A stretch of 35,874 nucleotides of DNA from Alistipes sp. (GTDB taxonomy: Bacteria; Bacteroidota; Bacteroidia; Bacteroidales; Rikenellaceae): positions 1 through 35,874 of the forward strand of contig JAFZEX010000041.1 in NCBI GenBank assembly GCA_017560425.1, in the 5' to 3' direction. The translations under genes were made by a program, and so were the position numbers. The notes beneath the pieces are model-generated. The model saw only the letters and a list, made by a program, of their open reading frames with translations, was not told the DNA's origin and made no database searches. Shown one piece after another: positions 20,205-34,017 of this stretch (position 1 is its first letter; each line of letters opens with the position of its first letter).

Positions 20205-21422
20205 ATGAGATTATTGTCACTCTTTTCCGGTTGTGGTGGAATGGATATTGGCTTTGAAGGAGGCTTTTACTGCCTGCGCAAAGCCATCAATACCCAGCTT
20301 CACCCTGATTGGATTGTGGACACTAATGGCGATTGGGCACTACTTGCTCCAACAATATTTGAAACAATTTTTGCTAATGATATTCGTAAAGATGCAAAAG
20401 TGGCATGGAGCACATATTTTAGCAAAAGAGGCAAAAATGTTTCTGACACATACAAGCTCGGAAGCATCGTTGATTTGGTAAAATCAGCACAACAAGGGGC
20501 AAAAGTTTTTCCCGAGAATGTAGATATTGTGACAGGTGGATTTCCTTGTCAAGATTTTTCAATTGCAGGAAAGCGCAAGGGTTTTGCCTCGAACAAAAGC
20601 CATTTGGGGAGGGTTCTTGAAGCAACCGAGCCATCTATAGAGAGTAGAGGACAACTCTACATGTGGATGCGTGAGGTTATATCCATAACACAACCCAAAC
20701 TATTTGTTGCAGAGAATGTAAAAGGGCTAACAGATCTTAACAATGTTAAGGAGATTATGGAGCGTGACTTTGCAGAAGCTGGCAATGGCGGATATATTGT
20801 AATACCCGCAAGAGTACTCTATGCTCCAGATTACGGAGTTCCCCAGTCACGTAGCCGAATTATATTTTTGGGATTTAAGAAGAGTGCATTAAGACCAGAG
20901 GCATATGAGGCTTTAACAAGTGAGATCATTCCTCATAGATACGACCCATATCCTGAAGCAACTCACGGCAGTACACTACCCTATGTCACATGCGCAGATG
21001 CTTTTGTTGGGTTGTCAGAGCCACACTTATCAGATGACCCATCACAGCGAATCTTCTCAAGGGCGAAATATATGGGTACTAAGTGTCAGGGGCAAACGGA
21101 GGTAAAGTTAGATTCAATTGGCCCCACCATACGTTCTGAGCATCACGGAAATATTGAGTATAGACGCTTATCTGAGGAACACGGAGGAAAACATACTGCA
21201 GAACTTTATGCAGGATTAGAAGAACGCAGACTAACCGTTCGTGAATGTGCGAGAATTCAGACATTCCCAGATGACTATGAATTTATTCTTGATAAGAGTT
21301 CTAAATATGGATCGTTATCATCGAGCGATGCATATAAAATTATCGGAAATGCTGTGCCATGTATCTTAGCATATAACATTGCCAAGAATCTTGAGTCTAA
21401 GTGGAATTTATACTTTGAATAA
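20205..21422 (+). CDS. DNA (cytosine-5-)-methyltransferase of a type II R-M system
   Basis: 405 residues. Motif I FSGCGGMDIGF (7-17, SAM binding), motif IV GGFPCQDFS with catalytic Cys115, motif VI ENV (170-172), motif VIII VPQSRSRIIFLG, a variable target-recognition region, and motifs IX-X RRLTVRECARIQTFPDDY and KIIGNAVPCILAYNIAK. It methylates the cytosine C5 in a target site that cannot be read from sequence. The gene is AT-richer than its neighbours and uses ATA, AGA and TTA codons freely, a sign of horizontal transfer. Its stop overlaps the endonuclease start by one base (TAATG). Confidence 0.95.
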   Translation: MRLLSLFSGCGGMDIGFEGGFYCLRKAINTQLHPDWIVDTNGDWALLAPTIFETIFANDIRKDAKVAWSTYFSKRGKNVSDTYKLGSIVDLVKSAQQGAKVFPENVDIVTGGFPCQDFSIAGKRKGFASNKSHLGRVLEATEPSIESRGQLYMWMREVISITQPKLFVAENVKGLTDLNNVKEIMERDFAEAGNGGYIVIPARVLYAPDYGVPQSRSRIIFLGFKKSALRPEAYEALTSEIIPHRYDPYPEATHGSTLPYVTCADAFVGLSEPHLSDDPSQRIFSRAKYMGTKCQGQTEVKLDSIGPTIRSEHHGNIEYRRLSEEHGGKHTAELYAGLEERRLTVRECARIQTFPDDYEFILDKSSKYGSLSSSDAYKIIGNAVPCILAYNIAKNLESKWNLYFE

Positions 21423-22492
21423 TGATTATTGCTGATAACCCAAAACCCTCAATAGAGGAATTTAAGGAACTGATGAAGCGTATTGACATTGCATTAAATA
21501 GAGATGCAATGCAACGCTCCGCATATTATCATAGCAGGTCAGGACTCGAGTTAGAGTATGACGTAAGAGATGCAGCTATAGAGTGCGCAAAGAACACAAA
21601 ATTTGAGGGTTCTATTCAACTTATTTCAGGCCATTCATTTCCTGACATTGTTGCCGCAAAATTATATGGAATAGAGGTTAAGAGCTCTAAATCTAACAAT
21701 TGGACATCAATCGGAAACTCTATATTAGAATCTACAAGAGTATCCAATATAGAGCGCATCTTCTTGACATTTGGAAAACTCAGCGCCCCTATTGAGTTTA
21801 AGTCTCGTGCCTACGAGGAGTGTCTATCAGGAATTGCTGTGACACACTATCCAAGATACCAAATAGATATGTCATTAACTGCAGGGGAGACTATCTTCGA
21901 TAAGATAGGTGTTTCATATGATGAACTACGCAACATGGAAAACCCCATAGAGCCAGTTGCAAGATACTACAAATCTCAGTTAAGACAGGGCGAGGGTTTA
22001 TGGTGGGCAGGTACTCAAAGCGAGATCATTGAGACTACTGTTCCAGCGACGGTGCGACTATGGAGAAGCCTATCAGCATATGAGAAAGATGAATTAGAGG
22101 CTACTATATATGCATTCTTCCCCGAAACAATAATATCATCATCTCAATATAAATATGACCGCGCCACATTGTGGTTGGCTACTCAAAAGGGTATCATCAA
22201 TGCGAACGTCAGAGACTCTTTCTCATCAGGAGGTAGAAATAAAATGCAAACAATTGATGGCAGATATATTGAAATGCCAGCAGTGTTTAAGAAAATTCAA
22301 GACCACATTGAAATCTTTGTAAGGATAATAAACGCAACTCCTACCGATATTTTGAGCGATAATTGGAGTCAAACAATCACTAATAATAGAATTAGGCAGT
22401 GGATTAATCTAGTAATCAACGAGACCAAAGACCTAAATAATAAAAAGAATGCCAAAGAGGTATTAGAGTGTATTTTCAAAGACTTAATTTAG
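21422..22492 (+). CDS. Type II restriction endonuclease, PD-(D/E)XK type
   Basis: 356 residues. The nuclease core is visible as PD at 74-75 and EVK at 85-87 (SFPDIVAAKLYGIEVKSSK), the canonical D-X9-EXK spacing, with a preceding helix carrying Glu (ELEYDVRDAAIE). The rest shows no further motif I know and should hold the DNA-recognition and dimer parts. Assignment as the partner nuclease rests on this motif plus translational coupling to the methyltransferase. AT-rich with codon use like the methyltransferase. Specificity unknown; no frameshift or truncation seen, so it may be active. Confidence 0.85.
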   Translation: MIIADNPKPSIEEFKELMKRIDIALNRDAMQRSAYYHSRSGLELEYDVRDAAIECAKNTKFEGSIQLISGHSFPDIVAAKLYGIEVKSSKSNNWTSIGNSILESTRVSNIERIFLTFGKLSAPIEFKSRAYEECLSGIAVTHYPRYQIDMSLTAGETIFDKIGVSYDELRNMENPIEPVARYYKSQLRQGEGLWWAGTQSEIIETTVPATVRLWRSLSAYEKDELEATIYAFFPETIISSSQYKYDRATLWLATQKGIINANVRDSFSSGGRNKMQTIDGRYIEMPAVFKKIQDHIEIFVRIINATPTDILSDNWSQTITNNRIRQWINLVINETKDLNNKKNAKEVLECIFKDLI

Positions 22493-28545: not shown

Positions 28546-28577
28546 TTTGCATAATTAAAATAAATTATTTAATTTTG
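28546..28577 (+). promoter_or_regulatory. Promoter of the leader peptide-metY-metX-hom unit
   Basis: TTTG (28546-28549), 20 bases, TAATTTTG (28570-28577). Transcription should start near 28583-28586, only some 13 bases before the leader ORF and about 210 bases before metY. Confidence 0.75.
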
Positions 28578-28597
28578 CATAAACAAGGAGAGAAGAA

Positions 28598-28687
28598 ATG
28601 TCTATTCGCACAACCATAAAACACTATCCTTCGACGTTGCAGAGCGCTGCAATCGTCAATATTATGTCTATGCGAATGTGCCGTTAG
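28598..28687 (+). CDS. Candidate Met/Cys-rich leader peptide, 29 aa
   Basis: ATG at 28598, TAG at 28685. It is preceded by AAGGAG at 28585-28590, 7 bases from the start; such a strong Shine-Dalgarno is rare in this window and argues for real translation. The last residues are NIMSMRMCR: three Met codons and one Cys codon within the last seven sense codons. The ORF lies between a consensus promoter and the methionine genes metY-metX-hom, and its end overlaps a hairpin, as in amino-acid-controlled attenuators. I know no named family for it; the regulatory role is an inference. Confidence 0.65.
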   Translation: MSIRTTIKHYPSTLQSAAIVNIMSMRMCR

Positions 28688-28764
28688 GCACACTCTCTTC
28701 ACATGGTGGTTACGCACCGCCAATCCCCAACCTAACTTAATATTTTACAGTCCGCTTAGCGGAC
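28633..28764 (+). promoter_or_regulatory. Hairpin series in the metY leader, candidate attenuator
   Basis: Four possible stems. The first is GACG-TTGCAG/CTGCAA-(T)-CGTC (28633-28642 with 28647-28657, one bulge) in the leader ORF. The second is TGTGCC-GTTA-GGCACA (28677-28692), which spans the Cys codon and the stop codon. The third is GGTGGT-TACGC-ACCGCC (28705-28721) and the fourth GTCCGC-TTA-GCGGAC (28750-28764). None has a proper U tract, so control of translation or Rho access is as likely as classical termination. Confidence 0.5.
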
Positions 28765-28794
28765 AAATTATGTAATGTTAATACGCTATTAACT

Positions 28795-30078
28795 ATGAGC
28801 GAACGTAAACTACACTTCGAGACACTTCAGATACATGGCGGCTATCACGTTGATGAGTCGCAGGCACGAGGCATTGCCATTCACCCTACTGCAGCATACC
28901 ACTTCCCTACGTGCGACTACGCTGCCAACCTATTCACCCTCAGCGAGCCAGGATATATCTACACTCGCCTACACAACCCCACAACAGCATCATACGAGGA
29001 GCGCCTCGCAGCGCTTTATGGTGGCGTAGGTGCGTTGGCTACCGCTTCGGGCATGTCGGCAATTCTGCTCACAATAACAGCCCTTGCCAAGGCTGGCGAC
29101 AACATCGTGGCATCGCCATATTTGTATGGTGGCACACACAACCAGTTTGTAATCTCGCTACGCAACCTTGGCGTAGAGTGTCGCTTGGCAAAGAGCGACT
29201 CGGCAGAGGATATCGCCGCACTCGTTGATGAGAACACACGTGCCATCTTCGCCGAGTCGATGGGCAACCCTACGTGCCGAGTTATTGACATAGAGGCAGT
29301 TGCTAAGGTTGCACACGCAAACCGCATACCTCTTATCATCGACAACACGTTTGGCGCTGGAGGCTACCTCTGCAACCCATTCGAGTGGGGTGCCGACATC
29401 ATCGTAGACTCGGCAACAAAGTGGATCAACGGTCACGGCACAGCCATGGGTGGCATCATCGTAGATAGCGGCAAGTTCGACTGGAGAGCCTCGGGCAAGT
29501 TCCCACAGATTGACGGTCCTTCGGAGGGCTACCACGGCCTTAACCTATGCGATGCCTTTGGCTCGGCAGCATTTATCGTAAAGTGTCGTGTTGATGGCAT
29601 GCGTGACTTCGGCTGCTGCCCTTCGCCATTCGATGCCTACCTCATGCTCATAGGCCTTGAGACCCTCTCGCTACGTGTTAAGCACGAGGTGGAGTCTACA
29701 TATCGCCTTGCCGAGTTCTGCCGTCAGCACCCTAAGGTTGAGCGTGTTAGCTTCGTGGGCTTCGAGGATCACCCAAGCCACGAGCTTGCCAAGAAGTACT
29801 TCAAGCATGGCGCATCGGCAGTGATGACCATCGAGCTTAAGGGCGACCTTGACTCTACCATAAAGTTTGTCGAGAGCCTCAAGCTATCGGGCAACATGAC
29901 CATGATTGGCGACTCGATAACCGTTGTCACACACCCCGCCTCAACAACCCACAAGCAGCTCTCAGAGGAGGCAAAGCGTGCCGCAGGCATCACACCTACA
30001 CTGCTACGCATATCGCTTGGCTTGGAGAATGTTGAGGACATTATCGCCGACTACGAGGAGGCTCTTGCAGCGATTTAG
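28795..30078 (+). CDS. metY: O-acetylhomoserine sulfhydrylase
   Basis: 427 residues. Cys/Met-metabolism PLP enzyme with HPTAAYHFPT, YTRLHNPTTASYEERLAALYGG, SGMSAILLTI and the PLP-binding Lys209 in DSATKWINGHG. The length and sequence fit O-acetylhomoserine (thiol)-lyase, making homocysteine from O-acetylhomoserine and sulfide, rather than the shorter cystathionine lyases. metX follows after 2 bases, supplying its substrate. Confidence 0.95.
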   Translation: MSERKLHFETLQIHGGYHVDESQARGIAIHPTAAYHFPTCDYAANLFTLSEPGYIYTRLHNPTTASYEERLAALYGGVGALATASGMSAILLTITALAKAGDNIVASPYLYGGTHNQFVISLRNLGVECRLAKSDSAEDIAALVDENTRAIFAESMGNPTCRVIDIEAVAKVAHANRIPLIIDNTFGAGGYLCNPFEWGADIIVDSATKWINGHGTAMGGIIVDSGKFDWRASGKFPQIDGPSEGYHGLNLCDAFGSAAFIVKCRVDGMRDFGCCPSPFDAYLMLIGLETLSLRVKHEVESTYRLAEFCRQHPKVERVSFVGFEDHPSHELAKKYFKHGASAVMTIELKGDLDSTIKFVESLKLSGNMTMIGDSITVVTHPASTTHKQLSEEAKRAAGITPTLLRISLGLENVEDIIADYEEALAAI

Positions 30079-30080
30079 TT

Positions 30081-31103
30081 ATGAGCCAAGTATATCGACA
30101 TAACGAGCCATTTACGCTTGAGTCGGGAGCAGTTCTTTCGTCGTTAGAGATTGCCTACGACACCTTTGGCACGTTAAACGAAGCGAAGGACAACATCATC
30201 TGGGTATGCCACGCACTCACGGCAAACTCCGATGTGGCAGATTGGTGGCCACACACCGTCGAGAAGGGCAAATTTCTCGACCCCGAGCGCTACTTCATCA
30301 TCTGCGCCAACTTCCTCGGCTCGCACTACGGCACAACATCGCCCCTATCGCTAAATCCAGAGACGGGCAAGAAATACTACTACGACTTTCCACGTGTCAC
30401 AGTGCGTGACATGGTGCGCTGCCATCAGCTACTTGCCAAGGCCCTTGGCATCGAGCGTGTTAAGATGCTCATTGGCAGCTCGATAGGTGGTTTTCAGTGT
30501 ATGGAGTGGGCTATTATGGAGCCTAAGTTCATGGAGCACCTCGCACTAATTGCCACCACGACATACTCCGAGCCTTGGGCTGCCGCCTTCAACGAGTCGC
30601 AGCGCATGGCAATACGCCTCGACCCTACGTGGGGTGAGGAGCGTGACGATGCCGGTCTTGACGGCATGGCTGTTGCACGATCGATAGCGCTTATTAGCTA
30701 TCGTGGTGGCAGCGCCTACAACGCCACACAGCAGGAGCTAACAGCCCCCGAGGAGGCATCGTTCGAGCGACGAGCACACACCTACCAGCAGTATCAGGGT
30801 GAGAAGCTACGCCGCAGGTTTAACGCCATGTCGTACTACCGCCTAAGCGAGGCTGTCGATTCACACAACATAGCACGTGGCAGAGGCTCCGTAGCCGAGG
30901 CTCTCCAAAAAATTGAGGCACGCACACTTGTTGTGGCGATATCGTCGGACATACTATTCCCCATCGAGGCGCACACGCCACTGCGTGAGCACATCGCCAA
31001 GGTTGAGTACCACGTAATCGAGTCGGAGTTTGGTCACGACGGCTTCTTGGTGGAACACGAAAAACTAAACACAATAATTGAAAACTTTATAAACAACAGA
31101 TAG
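30081..31103 (+). CDS. metX: Homoserine O-acetyltransferase
   Basis: 340 residues, alpha/beta-hydrolase fold. Nucleophile Ser134 in GSSIGG, acid Asp290 (SSDILFP) and His319 (FGHDGF), and the family block ANFLGSHYGTTSPLS. It acetylates homoserine from acetyl-CoA for MetY. A succinyl-CoA preference cannot be excluded from sequence, but pairing with metY favours acetyl. Confidence 0.94.
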   Translation: MSQVYRHNEPFTLESGAVLSSLEIAYDTFGTLNEAKDNIIWVCHALTANSDVADWWPHTVEKGKFLDPERYFIICANFLGSHYGTTSPLSLNPETGKKYYYDFPRVTVRDMVRCHQLLAKALGIERVKMLIGSSIGGFQCMEWAIMEPKFMEHLALIATTTYSEPWAAAFNESQRMAIRLDPTWGEERDDAGLDGMAVARSIALISYRGGSAYNATQQELTAPEEASFERRAHTYQQYQGEKLRRRFNAMSYYRLSEAVDSHNIARGRGSVAEALQKIEARTLVVAISSDILFPIEAHTPLREHIAKVEYHVIESEFGHDGFLVEHEKLNTIIENFINNR

Positions 31104-31105
31104 TC

Positions 31106-32287
31106 ATGAAAAATTTGAATATAGGACTCTTCGGCTTCGGCAATGTTGGTCGTGGCCTCTACGACGTGTTGCAGCGCATCGACTCATCGCACGTAAACAT
31201 CAAGCGCATCTGCGTGCGTGACATAAACAAGGAGCGTGGCATCAACGCCGAGTTTACAGACAACATCGACGACATATTCGCCGACAAGGATATCAACCTT
31301 ATTGTCGAGGTTATCGACGATGCTGAGGCGGCTTACGACATCGTTAAGCGTGCGCTCAAGAGCCGCATTCCTGTGGTTTCGGGCAACAAAAAGATGCTTG
31401 GCCACCACCTACCCGAGCTTATCGACCTTCAGGAGCAGTACAACACTGCCCTCTTGTACGACGCATCGGCATGTGGCTCAATTCCTGTTATCCGCAACCT
31501 CGAGGAGTACTACGACAACGACCTCTTGGTGTCGGTGAAGGGTATCCTCAACGGCTCGTCGAACTTTATCCTATCGAAGATCTTCAACGAGCATATGTCA
31601 TACGACAAGGCGCTAAAGCTCGCCCAGGATCTCGGCTTTGCTGAGAGCAACCCAACACTCGACATCGACGGCTGGGACTCGCTCTACAAGCTTATAATCA
31701 TCACTATCCACGCCTTTGGCGTATATGTTTCGCCCGACGAGATATTTACCTATGGTATCTCTACCATGAACGACTCCGATATCCGCTTTGCTCAGGAGAA
31801 GGATCGCCGCATAAAGCTCGTGGCACATGTCGAGAAGATCGACGACAGACTAATCATGTGCGTCATTCCTCAGCTCATCTCTCGCAACAAGTATATCTAT
31901 AGCGTTGAGGACGAGTTCAACGGCGTTGTTATCAAGGGTCTGTTCTACGACAAGCAGTTTATGTTTGGTCGTGGTGCTGGTGGCCACCCTACGGGCTCGG
32001 CTGTGCTTAGCGACATCACGGCATGCGCCTATAACTACCGCTACGAGTATAAGAAGCGTAACGACTCGGTACTACCTAAGTACAACACCGAGCATACGTT
32101 CCGTGTATACTTCCGCTATAAGAGTGCCGAGCAGCGCAACCTGCTCAACTTCTCGAAGATTCGTGAGCAGTACTCATCAGAGGAGTACAACTACATCGTG
32201 GGCGATGTGACGCTCTCAAACCTCAAGGCACATCAGGAGGAGCTACGCACCAAGGATTGCTTCGTAGCAGCCTACCCTCTCGACTAA
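31106..32287 (+). CDS. hom: Homoserine dehydrogenase
   Basis: 393 residues. NAD(P)-binding GFGNVG (10-15), then VVSGNKKMLG and the substrate/catalytic block FAESNPTLDIDGWDSLYKLIII with acidic residues and Lys. It reduces aspartate semialdehyde to homoserine. No aspartokinase domain is fused. The C-terminal 80 residues (HTFRVYFRYKSAEQRNLL...) may be an ACT-like regulatory end, but it is not a clear match. The gene starts 2 bases after metX, so metY-metX-hom is one unit dedicated to methionine. Confidence 0.92.
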   Translation: MKNLNIGLFGFGNVGRGLYDVLQRIDSSHVNIKRICVRDINKERGINAEFTDNIDDIFADKDINLIVEVIDDAEAAYDIVKRALKSRIPVVSGNKKMLGHHLPELIDLQEQYNTALLYDASACGSIPVIRNLEEYYDNDLLVSVKGILNGSSNFILSKIFNEHMSYDKALKLAQDLGFAESNPTLDIDGWDSLYKLIIITIHAFGVYVSPDEIFTYGISTMNDSDIRFAQEKDRRIKLVAHVEKIDDRLIMCVIPQLISRNKYIYSVEDEFNGVVIKGLFYDKQFMFGRGAGGHPTGSAVLSDITACAYNYRYEYKKRNDSVLPKYNTEHTFRVYFRYKSAEQRNLLNFSKIREQYSSEEYNYIVGDVTLSNLKAHQEELRTKDCFVAAYPLD

Positions 32288-33929: not shown

Positions 33930-34017
33930 AGGGGAAATTGCGTATAAAAAGAGTGCCGCTTTAGCATTTTTTTATTGTGGTTGCAATCAGTCCAAATCCT
34001 CCACATTAATTCGGGCG

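Follow-up and report, generated by a model that had tools for sequence, protein, structure and literature searches.

The window, the whole 35,874-nucleotide stretch of Alistipes sp. DNA analysed here, carries on its plus strand three genes for methionine synthesis: metY, encoding an O-acetylhomoserine sulfhydrylase (28795..30078; TIGR01326, 559.5 bits against a cutoff of 495.1), a gene for a metX-like homoserine O-acetyltransferase (30081..31103), whose best match, TIGR01392, stays at 346 bits below the cutoff of 500, and hom, encoding a homoserine dehydrogenase (31106..32287; NF004976, 305 bits, cutoff 205). The sequence before metY, on the same strand, is crowded with features. A promoter is recognizable at 28546..28577, where a −33 TTTG (28546-28549) is followed after a gap of 20 nt by a −7 box TAATTTTG of the form TAnnTTTG (28570-28577), TTTG/TAnnTTTG being the consensus given for Bacteroidota promoters in a passage of PMC7366714. 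Behind it come a purine-rich AAGGAG (28585..28590), which resembles a ribosome site and is putatively one, and a leader ORF of 29 codons, MSIRTTIKHYPSTLQSAAIVNIMSMRMCR, closed by TAG (28598..28687), whose frame and tail are retained across relatives. The ORF contains a 10-bp hairpin with one bulge (28633..28657) and ends in a cluster of Met codons at 28664, 28670 and 28676 (MSMRM, 28664..28678), the presumed sensor in view of the in-frame ATG enrichment found in 73 leaders. Comparison of relatives delimits a nearly invariant core, ATGCGAATGTGCCGnTAGGCAC (28670..28691), that includes hairpin 1, GTGCC-GTTA-GGCAC (28678..28691; 6 bp if T28677-A28692 is counted), which spans the Cys, Arg and stop codons. 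Hairpin 2, GGTGGT-TACGC-ACCGCC (28705..28721), has a UNCG/YNMG-like loop and shows compensatory changes; 3′ of it, base composition marks a C-rich, G-poor stretch, AATCCCCAACCTAACTT (28722..28738), and between this point and metY lies hairpin 3, GTCCGC-TTA-GCGGAC (28750..28764), without a U-tract.

The promoter, the AAGGAG, the 29-codon ORF ending in NIMSMRMCR and all of the hairpins had been listed in a first-pass annotation of this DNA, and each is present in the sequence. That annotation proposed a methionine-sensing leader peptide ahead of metY-metX-hom, a reading that hung on conservation of the frame and the Met codons in relatives; frame, Met codons and tail all proved to be conserved there. 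Elsewhere in the window, two consecutive ORFs at 20205-22492 resemble a DNA cytosine methyltransferase and, after it, its restriction partner, identities that we assume from the translations.

When 61 genomes, among them the window's own, were searched at the DNA level, the commonest shared block proved to be the end of the ORF plus the hairpins, not the start of the ORF. From ten sequences found by that search we built a covariance model of the region, which at E values up to 0.1 found 73 places in 70 of 180 same-genus genomes. Sixty-nine of the 73 places, in 68 of the 180 genomes, were strong matches (at least 35.9 bits) and the other four were weak; metY lies downstream of 68 of the 69 strong places and the remaining one reaches a contig edge. 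Weak matches among same-genus genomes include those in G530 and G431, and one genome, G499, carries two copies of leader plus metY (L099, L110). No strong match was found in 112 of the 180 genomes. Sixteen metY loci were read in such genomes: 15 of them showed no Met-rich upstream ORF in a crude screen that also missed two of four known leaders, in many of them metY closely follows another gene, and no Rfam family reached its gathering score there.

All model searches across more than 40 genomes were run under stricter filters. Among 393 genomes of the order the window was the sole strong match, and seven weak ones were inspected; among 198 genomes of the class, at E values up to 1e-4, the window alone matched. 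The weak matches L021, L024 and L027 were rejected as apparently lying inside protein-coding genes, presumably for fructose-bisphosphatase; L022, L023 and L026 had no metY-like ORF in the stretch inspected, and L124 and L125 no metY match nearby. An exact-pattern scan with 20 letters, run on a collection of 84,980 species, yielded 84 stretches; of the 80 matches listed, 70 have a metY motif downstream. These listed matches extend the range to further Rikenellaceae, to Prevotella and to one genome each labelled Muribaculaceae and Odoribacteraceae. The remaining ten listed matches comprise two Prevotella loci with metY, one in Prevotella corporis, the Odoribacteraceae locus, where the leader precedes metX-hom, one that runs into a contig edge (L179) and five without a metY motif (L131, L143, L172, L178 and L202), which look like chance occurrences in GC-rich DNA. 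In Prevotella corporis (L181, after 6806) the leader is followed by what we take to be a transposase-like ORF, with no metY within 526 nt. A scan allowing two mismatches gave 14 matches besides the window, among which L243 was dropped for want of a metY motif.

In the family of the Prevotella genome 2 of 221 genomes match, that genome itself and one weak match (G707), and around the Muribaculaceae-labelled genome 1 of 149, again that genome itself. The metY on this last contig (L180) is 84% identical to the window's, and 3.5 kb of the operon match at 73.5% DNA identity, so close that the contig may be a misplaced (misbinned) Rikenellaceae contig or the product of a recent transfer. At the other extreme, leader-adjacent metY falls to 50–54% protein identity at six loci (L137, L151, L186, L188, L193 and L198), and the core should therefore be either old or travelling with the operon.

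For quantitative comparison near-duplicates were merged and L148 and L243 left out, giving 74 representatives; 11 of these come from the exact-pattern scan alone, whose pattern fixes 18 core bases and half-fixes one, so that their tail identity is by construction. The leader region is conserved beyond chance. CGAATGTGCC is present in 69 of 69 model matches, a count favoured by the model's having been built from ten sequences that share it, and the ORF ends in frame on RMC(R/L)-stop in all 74 representatives. The tail reads ATG CGA ATG TGC CGN TAG in 70 of the 74, the others having TAA as stop (two), CTC as last codon (one) or CAG as first codon (one). The peptide ending is RMCR in 73 of 74, the third base of the last Arg codon being free (CGT, CGA, CGC or CGG), with a single CTC (Leu). 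By contrast to this freedom at the last Arg, the first Arg codon is CGA and the Cys codon TGC in 74 of 74; CGA makes up 33 of 469 Arg codons in the window's genes, and its constant use therefore points to constraint at the level of bases. Mean pairwise identity across the 74 representatives is 99.4% over the last 14 coding bases, against 32% over the preceding 30 bases and 36% in the linker.

The two conserved hairpins have evolved differently. In 59 distinct sequences four of the five pairs of hairpin 1 are invariant and the fifth varies once, and the hairpin folds better than shuffled sequences (mean z −2.55); folding of the ORF body in 74 leaders exceeds shuffles only weakly (mean z −0.67). 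Compensatory changes in hairpin 2 affect four of six pairs when the ten sequences are aligned without the model, and every one of the six in the 59 sequences aligned to it. Covariation across both hairpins was 0.206 against 0.126 in shuffles, reached by 1 of 500, for the ten sequences in an unfitted alignment, and 0.444 against 0.185, reached by 0 of 500, for the 59 sequences, whose model-fitted alignment leans to structure; in the latter alignment 97.1% of cells across both hairpins are paired. The hairpin 2 loop begins YNMG in 48 of the 59 distinct sequences, and the spacer between the hairpins, free in sequence, measures 12–15 nt in 60 of 60 cases in the model-based alignment. Since the hairpin 1 region shows no drift even at synonymous or compensatory sites, we think that sequence-specific recognition of hairpin 1 and its preceding bases, or an added constraint from the peptide, is involved.

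Several observations speak for translation of the leader. A TAnnTTTG box followed by an in-frame ATG was found in 73 of 74 representatives, at a median of 20 nt from box to ATG (15–30 nt in 64 of 73 leaders; range 4–96), and the control, shuffled upstream regions, contained such a box in 13%. The ORFs are 6–54 codons long, in a frame picked to agree with the tail, which makes their freedom from in-frame stops a matter of construction. Near the start codons 6 and 7 are often N/D then I (N/D at codon 6 in 38 and I at codon 7 in 45, of up to 73 leaders). We defined the ORF body as excluding the start codon and the last five codons (73 leaders) and found ATG at 183 of 1475 in-frame body codons (12.4%), against 9/1402 and 0/1402 in the other two frames (9/2804, 0.3%); Met accounts for 3.0% of codons in 30 genes of the window, so that leader bodies are enriched fourfold. 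The positions of the body Met codons vary, yet 176 of the 183 are no more than 16 codons away from the tail, a pattern that codon sensing predicts and that a fixed peptide alone would not. The body Met closest to the tail stands, in the commonest arrangement (33 of 74), two codons ahead of it. Five of the 74 leaders have no body Met besides start and tail, which counts against methionine sensing. Cysteine had been put forward as a second sensed amino acid; body Cys codons are not clearly enriched (36/1475 in frame, 103/1402 and 60/1402 out of frame), and that part of the proposal, like cysteine as the main signal, was given up. Given the Met enrichment in one frame, its variable positions near the tail and the Cys count, the sensed signal looks like methionine, read as codons.

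How the ribosome's position would be passed on to the operon is less apparent from the downstream sequence. Of the hairpins between hairpin 2 and metY, the best one scores below −4 kcal/mol in 70 of 73 leaders; its end lies 28–45 nt before metY in 38 of 73, and no sign of an intrinsic terminator was found there: the 10 nt after the best hairpin average 3.4 T in a region of 32% T, and at least six T occur in 6 of 70. Hairpin 3 was dismissed as an intrinsic terminator on the same ground, T content 3′ of the hairpin being that of the background. In a group of leaders ending in MMMRMCR or MMRMCR (L007, L041, L054, L056, L087, L094 and L097) there is no strong hairpin before metY, and the metY start lies in a weak stem. 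The first-pass annotation expected downstream folding to change. We scored 12 pairings among tail, hairpin 1 3′ arm, linker, Met cluster, 5′ UTR, hairpin 2 and downstream sequence and obtained mean z values of −0.67 to 0.43, a test that leaves room for gapped or tertiary pairing; tail and 3′ arm have no conserved partner by this measure, where the control described below gives 2.2. Kissing of the hairpin 1 and hairpin 2 loops and a GCGAAT-ATTCGC pairing near the window's ORF start were both dropped on reading the relatives, the latter also because tail against body gave a mean z of −0.09. Because neither a U-tract terminator nor an alternative pairing was found, the readout of window-type leaders may be new.

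The control was provided by leaders of another kind. In the family of genome G175, close metY homologues (E up to 1e-150) occur in 15 of 149 genomes, and 12 of these 15 loci have a leader ORF with a Met cluster, typically ending MMxMMCMCNRxxRV; a leader of this kind also occurs once in the window's own genus, at L084. In these 13 leaders (L210, L265-L268, L270-L275, L277 and L084), each before metY, the ORF end pairs with sequence before metY (mean z 2.2; above 1 in 10 of 13), and a run of at least five T follows downstream in nine. The Met cluster is common to both types, whereas the terminator/antiterminator layout was found in this one alone. Since the layout of the 13 is that of the textbook, methionine attenuation ahead of this operon is likely real in Bacteroidales. 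Two further loci bear mention: in another genus of the window's family, a homocysteine-biosynthesis gene (HcyBio, PF01837) is preceded on the minus strand by a leader with Met codons, MKTAISIRPVSTMSYCGGSARNRFSMDMRMRHRR, accompanied by a hairpin whose flank is T-rich (L025, around 1501-1541), and in another family of the order a possible Met leader ending CCFFMDMRGMRM lies about 240–260 nt upstream of a metY-like gene (L215).

The compared leaders of the window type thus combine a dedicated promoter box, an ORF starting about 20 nt past the −7 box, a Met cluster in the last ∼16 codons, a fixed RMCR-stop end, a near-invariant stop-codon hairpin and a covarying hairpin 12–15 nt beyond. From these comparisons we consider it probable that the leader regulates metY-metX-hom as a methionine-responsive leader peptide (attenuator). 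At a low supply of charged Met-tRNA, a ribosome would stall among the clustered Met codons, mostly at least two codons ahead of the tail, leaving the tail uncovered so that hairpin 1 could form beside hairpin 2 with RNA polymerase still near; with both hairpins formed, the operon would be expressed. When methionine is plentiful, the ribosome would run across the tail to the stop codon and hold hairpin 1 open, and expression would fall. The hairpin pair might be read out by the polymerase, by Rho or by a protein, or through mRNA fate. The leading edge of a ribosome lies ∼13 nt past its A-site. We infer that hairpin 1 forms at low methionine, because a ribosome stalled two codons before the tail stops just short of it; a ribosome at the stop codon covers the hairpin, which should therefore be open when methionine is plentiful. 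This makes doubtful the sign of the earlier proposal that slow decoding of Met codons keeps hairpin 1 open, the nearest upstream Met being mostly two codons before the tail: a stall there or further upstream would let the hairpin form, and to hold it open a ribosome would have to stall on the Met codons of the tail itself.

Plain codon sensing leaves the invariance of CGA, TGC and the 3′ arm unexplained, and other readings have to be weighed against it. Further points against the leader-peptide reading are the 112 same-genus genomes that lack a strong match and the Prevotella corporis leader, behind which another ORF takes the place of metY. Leader translation might govern access of Rho to the C-rich stretch past hairpin 2, which we regard as rather unlikely. 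The ∼40 nt 3′ of hairpin 2 contain on average 24.8% C and 11.6% G in leaders with a located metY start, no intrinsic terminator was found, and in a subset of leaders a C/A-rich, little-structured stretch takes the place of hairpin 3; with such composition Rho is a possible agent. The stretch is short, however, and a ribosome stalled upstream would leave it uncovered, which makes the direction of control uncertain. A more speculative idea, which we hold to be unlikely, accommodates the invariant bases by making the stop-codon hairpin and the YNMG hairpin at its fixed distance a sequence-specific signal acting on RNA polymerase or a bound factor, in the manner of put RNA, with the position of the ribosome in the Met codons gating its formation; if this were true, a switch by base pairing would be unnecessary.

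The fixed ending could also act as a peptide. In that case methionine or SAM would cause R-M-C-R-stop to stall the ribosome at termination, as in TnaC, and the stalled ribosome would decide the fate of the mRNA. The retention of RMCR in 73 of 74 leaders with a free third base in the last Arg codon, and of frame and stop in all 74, is what nascent-peptide arrest predicts; the fixed CGA and TGC codons (74 of 74) are base-level constraint, synonymous sites being free only at that last Arg, and Met enrichment at shifting positions is nothing an arrest motif requires, so that we think this quite unlikely. Were the core and hairpins instead to bind a ligand, with the ORF incidental, the near-invariant core, covarying hairpin and fixed spacing would be accounted for; but the ATG behind a promoter box in 73 of 74, the one-frame Met enrichment and the in-frame stop would not, there is no Rfam match, and two small hairpins offer little for a pocket, all of which renders a riboswitch very unlikely. 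It is scarcely credible that the short ORF, translated as it looks, encodes a small functional protein with regulation absent, since beyond its last five codons it is unconserved (32% identity over the preceding 30 bases) and its length varies from 6 to 54 codons.

The leader-peptide reading has several precedents in part. The classical ribosome-mediated attenuators of amino acid operons are the trp, his and ilv leaders, and we know of none whose ORF end is near-invariant in DNA sequence. Like these, and like the ilvB uORF of Corynebacterium (PMC11109978), the window type has a short ORF with codons for the product adjoining the biosynthetic operon. It differs from such systems in that neither a U-tract terminator nor antiterminator pairing was found, and in that the end of its ORF is near-invariant in DNA. 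Canestrari (2020) reportedly dealt with Cys-rich leader ORFs of mycobacterial cys operons. According to PMC1262725, mycobacterial cys operons have leader ORFs with Cys codons and are without terminators; a sulphur amino acid, codons near the stop and the lack of any conserved terminator found are shared with the window type. The differences are that window-type leaders appear to sense Met not Cys, have conserved hairpins and an invariant core, and belong to another phylum. Bacteroid-trp RNA acts as an attenuator. Catalogued as RF01692 and listed in PMC2864571, it resembles our case in serving an amino acid operon in Bacteroidota. It differs in its amino acid, tryptophan, and the window region has no Rfam match to RF01692.

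The put RNA of phage HK022 carries, close to its 5′ end, a pair of neighbouring hairpins with conserved bases and, to our knowledge, no leader ORF. The window type likewise has such a pair with conserved bases close to the 5′ end; unlike put RNA it has a leader ORF, and polymerase modification is here hypothetical. With TnaC and other arrest peptides it shares conserved residues beside the stop codon, and it departs from them in being constrained at base level even at synonymous sites and in having a Met cluster that varies. The usual accounts of methionine genes invoke SAM riboswitches, T-boxes or repressors. SAM riboswitches have in common with this leader the control of methionine genes; the leader itself has no SAM riboswitch match. 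The first-pass annotation was right in seeing no SAM riboswitch core here: an Rfam search at E values up to 10 gave seven matches at the leader, all far under their gathering scores and none credible. Its suggestion that the leader could stand in for such a riboswitch is compatible with this result. Such a methionine leader was not found described in the open-access literature, and a description elsewhere is possible; PMC7366714 notes that 5′ UTRs in Bacteroides contain short ORFs resembling leader peptides, in a passage that makes no mention of methionine.

A SAM-II riboswitch (RF01726, 59.2 bits) does occur in the window, on the minus strand at 33951-34010, directly before metK. SAM would therefore be read by RNA there, and the genome seemingly reads SAM by RNA at metK and Met-tRNA at metY. 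In conclusion, the window-type leader, found before the methionine-making genes of many gut bacteria, places sensor, stop codon and near-invariant hairpin in a 22-base element without a visible switch, and therefore raises the question of how it acts. The terminator-type leaders, for their part, offer a model open to direct testing in a major phylum of the gut. Ahead of this one operon, Bacteroidales appear to have at least two architectures in which a ribosome reads charged Met-tRNA.
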